Assembly: GCA_016201065.1 (NCBI GenBank)
Contig: JACQDL010000057.1
Coordinates: 100,572 to 164,571, forward strand
Source of the DNA: Actinomycetota bacterium
GTDB taxonomy: Bacteria > Actinomycetota > Actinomycetes > Mycobacteriales > JACQDL01
Direction of reading: 5' to 3'
Length of the DNA: 64,000 bases
Part shown: one piece after another, positions 29,537 to 64,000 of the stretch
Layout: every line of letters starts with the position of its first letter
Numbering within the stretch: position 1 is the stretch's first letter
Notes under the pieces: generated by a model
Database searches by the model: none
Told to the model about the DNA's origin: nothing
What the model saw: only the letters and a program-made list of their open reading frames with translations
Position numbers and translations under genes: made by a program

Positions 29537-30556
29537 ATGACCTCGGCAGCCGACGGCGCGGCGGGCCCGACCGGTGGACCACCACGCAACGGTCCAGCCG
29601 TGGCGGTCCGGGGGCTGGTGAAGCGGTACGGCGCGCTGGTCGCGGTTGACGGCGTCGACTTCGAGGTCCGCCCGGGCGAGACGTTTGGTTTCCTCGGTCC
29701 GAACGGCGCCGGCAAGTCGACCACCATCAACATTCTCTGCACGCTGACCCGCCCCACGTCGGGGGTGGCCACGGTCGCCGGACACGACGTCGTCCGGGAC
29801 CGCGACGAGGTCCGGCGCAACATCGGCGTCGTCTTCCAGGACCCGACCCTGGACGGGTACCTGTCGGCCGAGCAGAACCTGCGCTTCCACGCGGAGCTCT
29901 ACGGGGTGCCGCGCGCGGTCACCGCCGACCGCCTCCGGCAGGTGCTGGAGCTGGTCAACCTGTGGGACCGACGCGCCGACCTGGTCGGCAGGTTCTCCGG
30001 CGGCATGAAACGCCGGCTTGAGATCGCGCGGGGGCTGCTCCACTCGCCACGGGTACTCTTCCTCGACGAGCCGACGGTCGGCCTGGACCCCCAGACCCGC
30101 TCGGCGATCTGGCGTTACATCACGCAGCTGAAGCAGACCGAGGACATCACCATCTTCCTCACCACGCACTACATGGAGGAGGCCGAGTACTGCGACCGGA
30201 TCGCGATCATCGACTCCGGGCGGATCGTCGTGCTCGACACCCCGCAGGCGTTGAAGGCGTCGGTGGGTGCGGACCGGGTCCAGATCGCGACCGCCGACGA
30301 CCGGGCGGCGATGGCCGCGCTCGCTGACCGGTTCGGCATCGCCGCCGCCGTACACGATGGCGCGGTCACCCTCTCGGTGCCCTCCGGCCGGGAGTTCATC
30401 CCCCGGCTGTTCGCGGAGCTCGGCGTGCCGATCCGGTCGGTGAGCGTGTCCCGGCCGTCACTGGATGACGTGTTCATGTCCTACACCGGCTCCACGATCC
30501 GGGATGCCGACGAGGTGTCCGGATCGGAGTGGATACGCCGGATGGCACGGAGGTGA
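29537..30556 (+). CDS. ABC transporter ATP-binding protein, DrrA type
   Basis: 339 residues. Walker [11 protein letters not shown]-loop [12 protein letters not shown], signature [16 protein letters not shown], Walker [15 protein letters not shown] and the H-loop [15 protein letters not shown] all agree with the DrrA/daunorubicin-resistance family. A C-terminal domain of about 90 residues ([12 protein letters not shown]) is typical of that family. It pairs with the permease encoded 1 nt before its stop. GGAGAGG precedes ATG 29537, and TACGAT at 29513-29518 is a plausible -10. It may export a lipid or drug; the substrate is not readable. Confidence 0.92.
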
Positions 30557-31419
30557 TGGGCGTGGCGGCCGGCACGGTTGTCGGCGTGCGGGTCCCGGAC
30601 CGGGGCCTGCGGCGCGACCTGCGGGCGGTCCGGGTGGTCCTGCACCGCGAGCTGATCCGCTACGGGCGGGACCGGACCCGGATGATCTCCGGGCTCTCGC
30701 AGCCGATCCTGTGGCTGCTGGTGCTCGGCACCGGCCTGTCCTCACTGGTGTCGCGCAGCGGACCGGGAGTGAACCTGCGGACCTTCATGTTCCCTGGCGT
30801 GCTGGTCATGTCGGTGATGTTCACGGCGCTGTTCTCGGCGGCCTCGATCGTGTGGGACCGGGAGTTCGGCTTCCTGCGGGAGATGATGGTGGCGCCGGTC
30901 GGCCGGACCGCGATCTTGCTCGGCAAGTGCCTCGGCGGTGCCGTGGTGGCGACCCTCCAGGGCGCGTTCATCCTGATCCTGGCCGGCCTCGCCGGGGTGC
31001 CCTACTCGCCGCCGCTGATGGCGACGTTGCTGGTGGAGATGTTCCTCACGGCGCTCATGCTCACCGCGTTCGGCCTCGCCATCGCCGCCCGGATCAAGAA
31101 CATGCAGGCCTTCATGGGCGTGATGCAGATGGCCGCGATGCCGATGATGTTCCTCTCCGGTGCCCTGTTCCCGCTGGCAAACCTGCCGGGCTGGCTGACG
31201 GTGCTGACCCGGGTCAACCCGCTGACCTATGCGGTCGACCCCATGCGGCACGCCGTCTTCCAGCGCATCGCGGTCGCGCCACCCCTCCGTGCGACGCTGA
31301 GCCCGGGCGTCACGTGGGGCGGGTGGCGGGTACCGGTGCCGCTGGAACTCGGTGCGGTCATGGCACTCACGCTGGGCTTCCTCGCGCTGGCCATCCTGCA
31401 GTTCCGACGCGCCGACTGA
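30556..31419 (+). CDS. ABC-2 type permease partner of the DrrA-like ATPase
   Basis: 287 residues with six predicted membrane helices. The segment ILLGKCLGGAVVATLQGAFIL and FLSGALFPLANLPGWLTVLTRVNPLTYAVDPMRH are the ABC-2 signature. The ATG overlaps the upstream TGA (TGATG); GTG 30562 is a good alternative because GGAGG lies 8 nt before it. The track start (30529) would overlap the ATPase more. With the ATPase it forms a complete homodimeric-type exporter. The gap downstream to the cold-shock gene (31420-31522) holds a short 5-bp hairpin only. Confidence 0.9.
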   Translation: MGVAAGTVVGVRVPDRGLRRDLRAVRVVLHRELIRYGRDRTRMISGLSQPILWLLVLGTGLSSLVSRSGPGVNLRTFMFPGVLVMSVMFTALFSAASIVWDREFGFLREMMVAPVGRTAILLGKCLGGAVVATLQGAFILILAGLAGVPYSPPLMATLLVEMFLTALMLTAFGLAIAARIKNMQAFMGVMQMAAMPMMFLSGALFPLANLPGWLTVLTRVNPLTYAVDPMRHAVFQRIAVAPPLRATLSPGVTWGGWRVPVPLELGAVMALTLGFLALAILQFRRAD

Positions 31420-59464: not shown

Positions 59465-59635
59465 ATGTGCCAGCCCGCCACCTGCCGGACCTGCGGCAAG
59501 GCCTCCTACACCGGCTGTGGTCAGCACGTCGAGCAGGTCCTGCGCGGTGTCGCCAGGAACCAGCGGTGCTCCTGCCCACCGAGCGCGCGGCGCGCCAGCG
59601 GTGGCTCACTGCTGTCCCGGCTTCTGGGCCGCTGA
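59465..59635 (+). CDS. Small Cys-rich protein, likely metal-binding
   Basis: 56 residues, too short for the ORF track. It has six Cys (C2, C7, C10, C18, C35, C37), with CRTCGK forming a CxxC knuckle and CSC another pair, and a conserved GCGQHVEQVL segment. ATG 59465 has GAGGAGATCAC upstream. A zinc or copper site, or a persulfide-sensitive thiol cluster, is likely. The perfect CsoR/CstR-like palindrome about 113 bp upstream suggests control by copper or sulfane sulfur. The 3' end overlaps the converging ackA gene by 30 bp. The biochemical role is unknown. Confidence 0.75.
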   Translation: MCQPATCRTCGKASYTGCGQHVEQVLRGVARNQRCSCPPSARRASGGSLLSRLLGR

Positions 59636-60778
59636 CCCCACACCCACGCCAGGCTCATCGACCGGGCCGTGCGCGGTGCCGGTGGTGAGGGTGGCCCGGA
59701 CCTCCCGGGCGATCTCCAGATCCTCCCGGGCGGCCACCACGACGGTCGCCGCGTGGGCGCCGGCCGCGCTGATGTCCGCGTCCGCACCCGACCGCACCGC
59801 CTCGTTGCGGTCGGGTGCGACCCGGACCCCGAGGAAGGCCAACCCCCCGGCCGCCTCGGCCCGGGTCCACGGGTCGTGCTCGCCCACCCCGCCGGTGAAC
59901 ACCAGCACGTCCAGCCCGTTCATGGCCGCGGCCATGGCCGCGATCTCGCGGCGCAGCCGGTGCTGGTAGACCTCCACCGCGAGCCGGGCCCCGCTGTCGC
60001 CGGCCGCAGCGGCACGCCGGACGTCGCGCAGGTCACCGCTGCCAGCCAGCCCGGTCAGCCCGGACTCGTGCTCCAACGCCTCCGACACCTCCGACACGGT
60101 GAGCCCACCGCGCTGCAGCAGCCACAGCAGCAGGCCCGGGTCGACGCTGCCGGAGCGGGTCGCCATCACCAGCCCCTCCAGTGGGGTGAATCCCATCGTG
60201 GTGTCCACCGACCGCCCACCGGCCACCGCCGCCAGCGACGCGCCGGCGCCGAGGTGGCAGCTCACGATGCGCAGCCCCGCCAGGTCCCTCCCGAGCAGCT
60301 CGGCCGCCCGCCGGGTGGCGTGGGCGTGGGAGAGGCCGTGGAAGCCGTACCGTCGCAGCGGCCACCGCTGCCGCCACCGCGCGGGCAGCGCGTACGTCGT
60401 CGCTGCGGCGGGCAGGTCGGCGTGGAACGCGGTGTCGAAGCAGGCCACCGCCGGCGCGTCGGGCAACGCCGCCCGCACCGCGTCGATGCCGGCGAGGGCC
60501 TGCGGCTGGTGCAGCGGTGCCAGGTCGGTGAGCGCGGCGATCCGCTCCCGGACGACGGGGTCCAGCACCGCCGGGCCACGGAAGTCGGCACCGCCGTGCA
60601 CCACGCGGTGCCCCACCGCGTCGATCCGGTCCGTCTGCCGCACGAACCGGGCGACCTCGTCGGCCGCGCCGTCACCGGACCACCGCGACACCGTGTGCGC
60701 GGCCAGCACCGTGCCGGCCGGGTCCAGCACGCTCAGCTTGAGGCTGGACGAGCCGGCGTTCACCACGAGCACCCGCAT
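59606..60778 (-). CDS. ackA: Acetate kinase
   Basis: 390 residues, ASKHA fold. LVVNAGSSSLKLSVL at the N-terminus, GHRVVHGG, YGFHGLSHAHATRRAAE and SCHLGAGASLAAVAGGRSVDTTMGFTPLEGL are the acetate-kinase signatures. It converts acetyl-phosphate + ADP to acetate + ATP. ATG 60778 is the homologous start; the track's 61771 runs through the phosphoketolase gene. Gap to the phosphoketolase stop is 20 nt, so one operon. Together they give ATP from pentose or hexose phosphates without pyruvate oxidation. Confidence 0.93.
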   Translation of the reverse strand: MRVLVVNAGSSSLKLSVLDPAGTVLAAHTVSRWSGDGAADEVARFVRQTDRIDAVGHRVVHGGADFRGPAVLDPVVRERIAALTDLAPLHQPQALAGIDAVRAALPDAPAVACFDTAFHADLPAAATTYALPARWRQRWPLRRYGFHGLSHAHATRRAAELLGRDLAGLRIVSCHLGAGASLAAVAGGRSVDTTMGFTPLEGLVMATRSGSVDPGLLLWLLQRGGLTVSEVSEALEHESGLTGLAGSGDLRDVRRAAAAGDSGARLAVEVYQHRLRREIAAMAAAMNGLDVLVFTGGVGEHDPWTRAEAAGGLAFLGVRVAPDRNEAVRSGADADISAAGAHAATVVVAAREDLEIAREVRATLTTGTAHGPVDEPGVGVGSAAQKPGQQ

Positions 60779-60798
60779 GTCGGCGGGGCCGATGGTGG

Positions 60799-63171
60799 TC
60801 AGAACGGCCACCGCCAGTCGCGGATCTCCGGCAGGTCCTCCCCGTAGGTCCGGGTCCACTGATGGTGCTGGATGCGCTTGTCCCGCATGAGCTGCTGGAC
60901 CCGGGCACCCCGGGAGCCGAGGCCGGGGATGCGGTCGAGCACGTCGACGACCAGCTGAAACCGGTCCATGTCGTTGATCACCAACATGTCGAACGGCGTG
61001 GTCGTGGTGCCCTCCTCCTTGTACCCGCGCACGTGCAGGTTGGCGTGGTTGGTACGCCGGTAGGTCAGCCGGTGGATCAGCCAGGGGTAGCCGTGGAAGG
61101 CGAAGATCACCGGCCGGTCGGTGGTGAACAGCGCGTCGAACTCGCTGTCGGTCAGGCCGTGCGGGTGCTCGGTGTCGGGTTGCAACCGCATCAGGTCGAC
61201 CACGTTGACGACCCGGATCTTCAGCTCCGGCAGCTGCTCGCGGAGCAGCGCCGCAGCCGCCAGCACCTCCAGCGTCGGCGCGTCCCCGGCGCAGCCGAGC
61301 ACCGCATCCGGCTCCCCATCGTCCTCGGTACCGGCCCACTGCCAGACGCCAACGCCACGGGTGCAGTGCAGCACCGCCTCCTCGACGCTCAGCCAGTCCG
61401 GTGTCAGGTTCTTGCCGGCCACGATGACGTTGACGTAGTTGCGGCTGCGCAGGCAGTGGTCGGCAACCGACAGCAACGTGTTGGTGTCCGGCGGCAGGTA
61501 GACCCGGACCACCTCGGCCTTCTTGTTCACCACATGGTCGAGGAACCCGGGGTCCTGGTGCGAGAACCCGTTGTGGTCCTGCCGCCATACGTGCGAGGTG
61601 AGCAGGTAGTTCAGGGAGGCGACCGAACGCCGCCAGTCCAGCCGCTGGTGCGTCTTGAGCCACTTCGCGTGCTGGTTGAACATCGAGTCGACGATGTGGA
61701 TGAATGCCTCGTAGCAGGAGAAGAGGCCGTGCCGGCCGGTGAGCAGGTACCCCTCCAGCCAGCCCTGGCACAGATGCTCCGACAGCACCTCCAGCACCCG
61801 GCCGTCGCGGGCCAGGTGCTCATCGACGTCCAGCGTCGGCAGCTGCCACTGCTTGCCGGTGACCTCGTACACCGCGTCGAGCCGGTTGGAGGCGGTCTCG
61901 TCGGGTCCGAACAGCCGGAAGTTGCGCGCCTCGGCGTTGGCCGACATCACCTCCCGCAGCATCGCCCCGAGCACCCGGGTCGGCTCGGAGACGCTCTCGC
62001 CGTGCCCGGTCACCTTGACGCCGTAGTCGCGGAAGTCCGGCAGGATCAGGTCCCGCAGCAGCAGGCCACCGTTGGCGTGCGGGTTGGCACCCATCCGCCG
62101 CGCCCCGTCCGGGACGAGGTCCAGCAGCTCCGGAACCGGCCGGCCGCGGTCGTCGAACAGTTCCTCCGGGCGGTAGCTACGCAGCCACGCCTCCAGCATC
62201 CGCAGGTGGTCGGGGTTCTCCCGGACCGCCGCCAGCGGCACCTGGTGCGCCCGCCAGGTCCCCTCCACCGGCACCCCGTCCACGACGGCCGGGCCGGTCC
62301 AGCCCTTCGGCGAACGCAACACGACCATCGGCCAGCGGGGACGGTCCGCCGACTCCCCGGACCGCGCGCGGCGTTGGATGTCGTGGATGTCGGCCACGAC
62401 CCGGTCCAGCGTGCTCGCCATCTGCTGGTGCATCGACTCCGGCTCGCTTCCCTGCACGCTGTACGGCTGGTAGCCGTAGCCGCGCAGCAGTGACTCCAGC
62501 TCCTCCTGCGGGAGCCGGGCCAGCACCGTCGGGTTGGCGATCTTGTATCCGTTGAGGTGCAGGATCGGCAGGACCGCGCCGTCGTGGATCGGGTCGAGGA
62601 ACTTGTTCGCGTGCCAGCTCGCCGCCAGCGGACCGGTCTCCGCCTCGCCGTCGCCGACGACGCAGGCGACCGTGAGGTCGGGGTTGTCGAACGCCGCCCC
62701 GAAGGCGTGCGCCAGGGAGTACCCCAGCTCACCGCCCTCATGGATCGAACCCGGGATCTCGGGGGCGACGTGGCTGGGCACCCCGCCCGGGAAGGAGAAC
62801 TGCCGGAACAGCTCCCGCATCCCCCGGGCGTCCCGGGCGATGTTCGGGTACGCCTCGCTGTAGCTCCCCTCCAGCCAGGTGTTGGCGAGGATGGCCGGTC
62901 CGCCGTGCCCCGGCCCGATCACGTACATCATGTTCAGGTCCCGAGCCTTGATCACCCGGTTGAGGTGGGCGTAGATGAAGTTCAGGCCGGGCGTGGTGCC
63001 CCAGTGACCGAGCAACCGGGCCTTGAGGTGCTCACGGGCCAGCGGCTCGGTCAGCAGCGGGTTGTCCAGCAGGTAGATCTGCCCCACCGACAGGTAGTTC
63101 GCCGCGCGCCAGTAGGCGTCGGTCAGGTGCAGCTCCTCGGCACCCAGCGGCGTGTCCAGCTGTACGGGCAT
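60799..63171 (-). CDS. xfp: Phosphoketolase (xylulose-5-/fructose-6-phosphate)
   Basis: 790 residues, full length. Thiamine-diphosphate motif [46 protein letters not shown] and [22 protein letters not shown]. The C-terminal [24 protein letters not shown] completes the fold. It forms acetyl-phosphate from xylulose-5-P (and usually fructose-6-P) with Pi. Start ATG 63171 follows GGGGGA; ATG 63198 is possible. Acetate kinase is encoded next, 20 nt on. I see no DosR-like box in the 254-bp upstream region. Confidence 0.95.
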
Positions 63172-63425
63172 GACGCGCTGTCCCCCAGTCCTGGTCATGG
63201 GTCATCCCTGGCGTCGGATCACGGTGTGCGACCGACCTCGGCCAGCCAGGTTGCACCCCGAACCTATCCCTGACCGACGTGCTGCCCCACCCGACGCACC
63301 GAGCCAGGAGCGAGCATTCGATGCCACACCGCGGTCATCCGAGTCTGGCAGGGTGTGTGACATGACCGACCACCCGCTCGAGCGGCACAGCAGTGCCGGC
63401 GCCTGACCCGGGAGATCCGAACACA

Positions 63426-63902
63426 GTGTCCAAGGGCCGCGAGCCTGCGGGACCGGTACCCGACCAGGGTCGACCCACCCTGCGGGCTGACTGCGAGAGC
63501 TGTTTCGCGCTGTGCTGTGTCGCGCCAGCCTTCCTGGCCTCGGCGGACTTCGCGATCAGCAAGGACGCCGGACACCCCTGTCCCCAGCTCCAACCGGACT
63601 TCCGCTGCACCATCCACCCCCGCCTCAGGCAGCAGGGATTTCCGGGTTGCACCGTCTACGACTGCTTCGGAGCGGGTCAGAAGGTCTCCCAGGTCACCTT
63701 CGGTGGACAGGACTGGCGGAGCGTCCCGCACACCGCGGACCAGATGTTCGACGTATTCCCGATCATGCGACAGCTGCATGAGCTGCTCTGGTACCTGACC
63801 GAGGCGCTGACCCGACCGGCGGCTCACCCGGTTCACGGCGAGCTCCGCAGCACGCTCGACGACATTGAGGCATTCCGCGTAACTGGTGCTCACGGTGTGT
63901 GA
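63426..63902 (+). pseudogene. Truncated N-terminal part of a pentapeptide-repeat-family protein
   Basis: 158 codons. The head DCESCFALCCVAPAFLASADFAISKDAGHPCPQL, FRCTIHPRLRQQGFPGCTVYDCFGAGQKVSQVTFGG and PIMRQLHELLWYLTEALTRPAAHPVHGELRS match the Cys-rich N-terminal region of actinobacterial pentapeptide-repeat proteins of about 270-280 residues. After DDIEAF homology stops (RVTGAHGV) and a stop follows; the A(D/N)LxX repeats are missing. GTG 63426 with GGGAG upstream is the likely start; the track begins at 63393. The break lies about 20-35 bp from a transposase-like 3' end, suggesting an insertion. The head may still fold as a metal-binding module. Confidence 0.65.
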
Positions 63903-63915
63903 TTGCCGGTGTGGG

Positions 63916-63999
63916 TCAGGTGGTGCGGTGGTGCTCGTGGTGAAGCAGGACCAGGGCTGCGGCGACGATATCGCCGATGCGTTGCGGGCAGCCACGCCA
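63916..63999 (-). mobile_element. Possible 3' end of a transposase gene, cut by the window edge
   Basis: The minus strand reads WRGCPQRIGDIVAAALVLLHHEHHRTT-stop and continues past position 64000. This looks like the C-terminal end of an IS transposase (IVAAALVLLHxEHHR pattern). It starts only 14 bp after the truncated pentapeptide gene, and terminal repeats cannot be defined from the visible part. Low sequence content makes the assignment tentative. Confidence 0.4.
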
Positions 64000-64000
64000 G

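Follow-up and report, generated by a model that had tools for sequence, protein, structure and literature searches.

A pentapeptide-repeat gene split by an IS5-family insertion sequence, its two halves on separate contigs of an Actinomycetota genome

Why does a gene with intact relatives in many genomes break off just before the end of a contig, beside what resembles the end of a transposase? The gene lies at the right-hand end of the window, as we call the whole stretch of 64,000 nucleotides analysed here (G000:C17:100572-164571), which finishes together with its contig, C17 (164,571 bp), in a 3.65 Mb assembly of 65 contigs. The original prediction held that a pentapeptide-family gene had been cut off at this point and that its expected A(D/N)LxX repeats were gone, and both statements are borne out. 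What the window retains of this pentapeptide-repeat protein (63426..63866, + strand) is its N-terminal half: 147 codons, counted from a probable GTG start at 63426 in a frame that is already open at 63393, which encode a Cys-rich head with a helical linker. This half has 72-79% identity to the intact relatives L074-L081. The surrounding open reading frame (63393/63426-63902, +) is genuine: the search covered our own genome and 40 from the same order, and 23 of these 41 have a homologue of the head, nearly always with the repeat half behind it. Eighty more homologous loci were fetched from other phyla. The relatives, mostly 260-310 aa long when measured from the head onward, share one layout, in which A(D/N)LxX repeats come after a Cys-rich head and a helical linker. 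Pentapeptide repeats are lacking in the window frame, and a Pfam search of it returned no match.

Homology to the relatives finishes at the codon ATT (63864-63866), that is, after 'DDI'. The break had been placed after DDIEAF; that homology stops here is correct, but with GAG GCA TTC ('EAF') an insertion sequence (IS) has already begun, and the agreement of the E with the relatives is a coincidence. The interrupted gene now closes with eleven codons taken from the IS (EAFRVTGAHGV), followed by the stop codon TGA at 63900-63902 (63867..63902, +; frame 63393-63902). The left end of the element, ended by the contig end, occupies 63867..64000, and these same bases recur at 20 other sites of the genome with 97-100% identity, nearly always at contig ends. 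Altogether 21 or more left junctions and 17 or more right junctions of the IS are present, nearly all of them located at contig ends, and the interior of the element is absent from the assembly. An element that recurs at 20 or more further sites broke the assembly, which is the reason for the end of the window 134 bp into it and for the need to seek the far side of the gene on a separate contig.

The transposase-like C-terminus that had been noticed on the other strand is confirmed by a longer copy. In the window the tail comprises about 27 codons (63916..64000, -), ends ...VAAALVLLHHEHHRTT* and has its stop codon at 63916-63918, 13 bp past the stop of the head frame and in keeping with the predicted 14 bp; the longest tail in the assembly, 72 aa on contig C18, matches PF13359 (DDE_Tnp_4, E=1.5e-9) above the curated cut-off. 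The terminal inverted repeat starts GAGGCATTCCGCGTAAC. The left end opens GAGGCATTCCGCGTAACTGGTGCTCACGGTGTGTGATTG and the right end, in inward reading, GAGGCATTCCGCGTAACCGGTTGTGACTGTGTGTGATTG, the first 17 bases being identical at both ends and most of the first 40 agreeing; the transposase frame runs right to left across the element. At all 38 junctions ANT stands next to the element, mostly within CANTG, the preferred target. On the host side, the base before ANT differs from C at 3 of 21 left ends and the one after it from G at 2 of 17 right ends; on the IS side, every left end has G and every right end C. Because the IS-side base never varies and the host-side base does, the invariant G and C belong to the element and the target duplication is the 3-bp ANT; a 5-bp CANTG duplication is rejected on the same grounds.

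A DDE transposase of the IS5 type, terminal inverted repeats and a fixed short target duplication place the element in the IS5 family, with whose members it shares a DDE_Tnp_4 tail, short inverted repeats, a 3-bp duplication and a single end-to-end transposase, an assignment that rests on the ends and the transposase tail of an element that is not assembled in full. The ANT duplication presumably points to the ISL2-like subgroup of that family as given in ISfinder; a literature search on the ISL2/ANT subgroup found nothing useful. Annotated full-length relatives on Streptomyces plasmids match the NCBIfam IS5 family at 1e-21, below the equivalog cut-off. Since the nearest plasmid relatives are only 67-78% identical in DNA, the element is probably an unnamed one.

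The original prediction had directed attention beyond position 64000, to the IS, its terminal repeats and the missing half of the gene; all three were found, the far side on contig C48. When the C-terminal half of an intact relative was compared with our own genome, the sole strong match (E=1.9e-41) was a stretch of 142 codons at G000:C48:30751-31152 (-). Its first codons, ATT GAA CGC (IERLTHGSPES...), abut the right IS end; it runs to a natural stop and carries tandem A(D/N)LxX repeats; this detached half is like other pentapeptide-repeat proteins in matching PF00805 (E=4.8e-23). The other pentapeptide matches in the genome, on C62 and C9, are different proteins. The same ATT duplication stands at the left junction on C17 (63864..63866, in the target CATTG) and at the right junction on C48 (~31150-31152). 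Only four ANT duplications are possible, ATT among them, so this agreement by itself is weak, and we take the codon-exact continuity of the two flanks as the main argument for an insertion. Joined with a single ATT, they form an unbroken frame of 300 codons that aligns without a gap to L074 (76% over 286 aa) and to L081 (75% over 282 aa); nothing is missing where they meet, and neither half of the gene shows damage.

Taken together, these observations leave us in very little doubt that a pentapeptide-repeat gene has been split by an IS5-family insertion and that its halves lie on C17 and C48. A high-copy element would have transposed into CATTG inside a single-copy gene, duplicating ATT and parting the Cys-rich head, which lies to the left and within the window, from the repeat half of 142 codons to the right on C48; the left frame would then have come to terminate 11 codons into the element. 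Such an insertion would account for both of the oddities that the original prediction had attributed to it, the lost repeats and the adjacent transposase frame. What was directly observed comprises the two junctions, the inverted repeats and target duplication, a join free of gaps, and the number of IS copies. The physical link from C17 through the IS to C48 is deduced, no one contig or read covering the whole element here, and the two junctions would on this deduction come from one IS copy. As proposed originally, the insertion appears to be recent, with which the absence of decay in either half and the near-identity of the IS ends are in accord. No second copy of the head was found in the genome, where the gene is single-copy, and the other pentapeptide matches are different proteins; loss of the intact protein is therefore probable. 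The repeat half could conceivably be expressed as a fusion product, since a 205-codon open frame runs from the right IS end into it and has an ATG inside the element.

Undecayed halves and near-identical IS ends would also be seen if the insertion were a minority or recent variant, with the intact gene persisting in the sampled population or in other strains and the assembly displaying just one state. The assembly itself holds no intact copy, and we regard this alternative as unlikely, though it is the strongest of those considered. Less probable is that recombination between IS copies, by inversion or deletion, followed the insertion, so that the two halves are no longer chromosomal neighbours. 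At least 21 copies offer ample substrate for such an exchange and the link between C17 and C48 is not displayed by the assembly; however, the ATT duplication is present at both junctions, the left and right sequences represent the opposite ends of one IS, oriented as expected, and the original event would still have been the same insertion. That the truncated head is a working protein alone, its Cys-rich module functioning without repeats, seems to us the least probable of all, because although no other part is as well conserved as the head, whose frame is also undamaged, nearly all relatives keep the repeats in frame, the two apparent head-only relatives that were examined (L055 and L123) have repeats in a shifted frame, and the event seems too recent for selection to be read.

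Returning to the insertion as the preferred reading, two variants of the element merit description. The right IS end beside the repeat half (G000:C48:31152-31506) contains a 67-bp tandem duplication (GTGCGACAAAAGACGCGG...) that is missing from the other right ends, whose sequence breaks off close to there; it is either a true variant or an assembly artefact of the contig end. Additional to the 17 right junctions, a single older and diverged copy lies inside contig C13 (~80277-80567), about 90% identical near the right end and apparently decayed, with a tRNA-like stretch not far beyond.

The insertion is an ordinary event, one of at least 21 by an expanding IS of a known kind, but it illustrates that a contig end can conceal an interrupted gene whose other half is recoverable by sequence. 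Of greater interest is the uncharacterised protein family that it struck, a widespread combination of Cys-rich head and pentapeptide repeats whose head has no Pfam model and for which the libraries searched gave no functional description. The head had been described as a conserved module in its own right, and the sequences bear this out: eight Cys and one His stay unchanged throughout 43 members drawn from Actinomycetota, Bacillales and Ktedonobacter, arranged as C-x2-C-x3-CC ... C ... C-x2-H ... C-x4-C. The head is covered by no Pfam family in any of these 43 members, and the head profile matched no solved structure. Structure prediction for an intact relative gave a model with high confidence in the linker and repeats and poor confidence in the Cys region (pLDDT 49-80 in the first 60 residues); a fold search with this model returned, among PDB entries, pentapeptide proteins only, by way of the repeats. 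Two loci, L055 (1501-2600) and L123 (6300-7000), seem truncated after the head, with the repeats frame-shifted either by a frameshift mutation or by a sequencing error.

Over the repeats, the model of the intact relative resembles solved pentapeptide proteins such as MfpA. By contrast, MfpA and Qnr are without the Cys-rich head and helical linker that this family carries, and because the protein scores far below the NCBIfam cut-offs for both, we make no claim of quinolone resistance. The order of cysteines in the head is similar to that of the YkgJ/CxxCxxCC putative metal-binding domain (PF03692), a similarity confined to about the first 45 residues. CxxC-x(2,3)-CC and the further conserved Cys are present and invariant in the head, and its alignment to YkgJ-like proteins is weak: a YkgJ-like protein from Ktedonobacter gives E=1.5e-5 with the L074 head in a four-sequence comparison and scores 28.7 against the head profile, where shuffled columns reach at most 16. 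None of the 43 head members matches PF03692 even at E<=10, nor does anything in our own genome, and membership of the head in that family is not supported by the family profile. On the pattern of cysteines we judge it more probable than not that the head binds a metal or a cluster, whereas true kinship with YkgJ is a possibility we would place a little below even chances. More speculative still is the combined proposal that the head is an undescribed metal- or cluster-binding domain, remotely related to YkgJ and joined to the pentapeptide-repeat fold in Actinomycetota, Bacillales and Ktedonobacter; if this is true, the present genome holds a natural separation of the two modules. A literature search found no papers that describe a Cys-rich and pentapeptide family or that tie YkgJ to pentapeptide repeats.

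A motif search of the sequences flanking some 100 homologue loci, a method that can miss divergent genes, found neither suf nor phosphoketolase genes as conserved neighbours of the family. In this genome, genes of both kinds, judged by eye, adjoin the two halves. In the window, the interrupted gene is divergently upstream of a phosphoketolase-like gene (60799-63198), downstream of which is an acetate-kinase-like gene (together 59606-63198, -). On C48, past the repeat half and on the opposite strand (~30300-30750), are SufT-like (MIP18/DUF59-type) and SufU-like genes.
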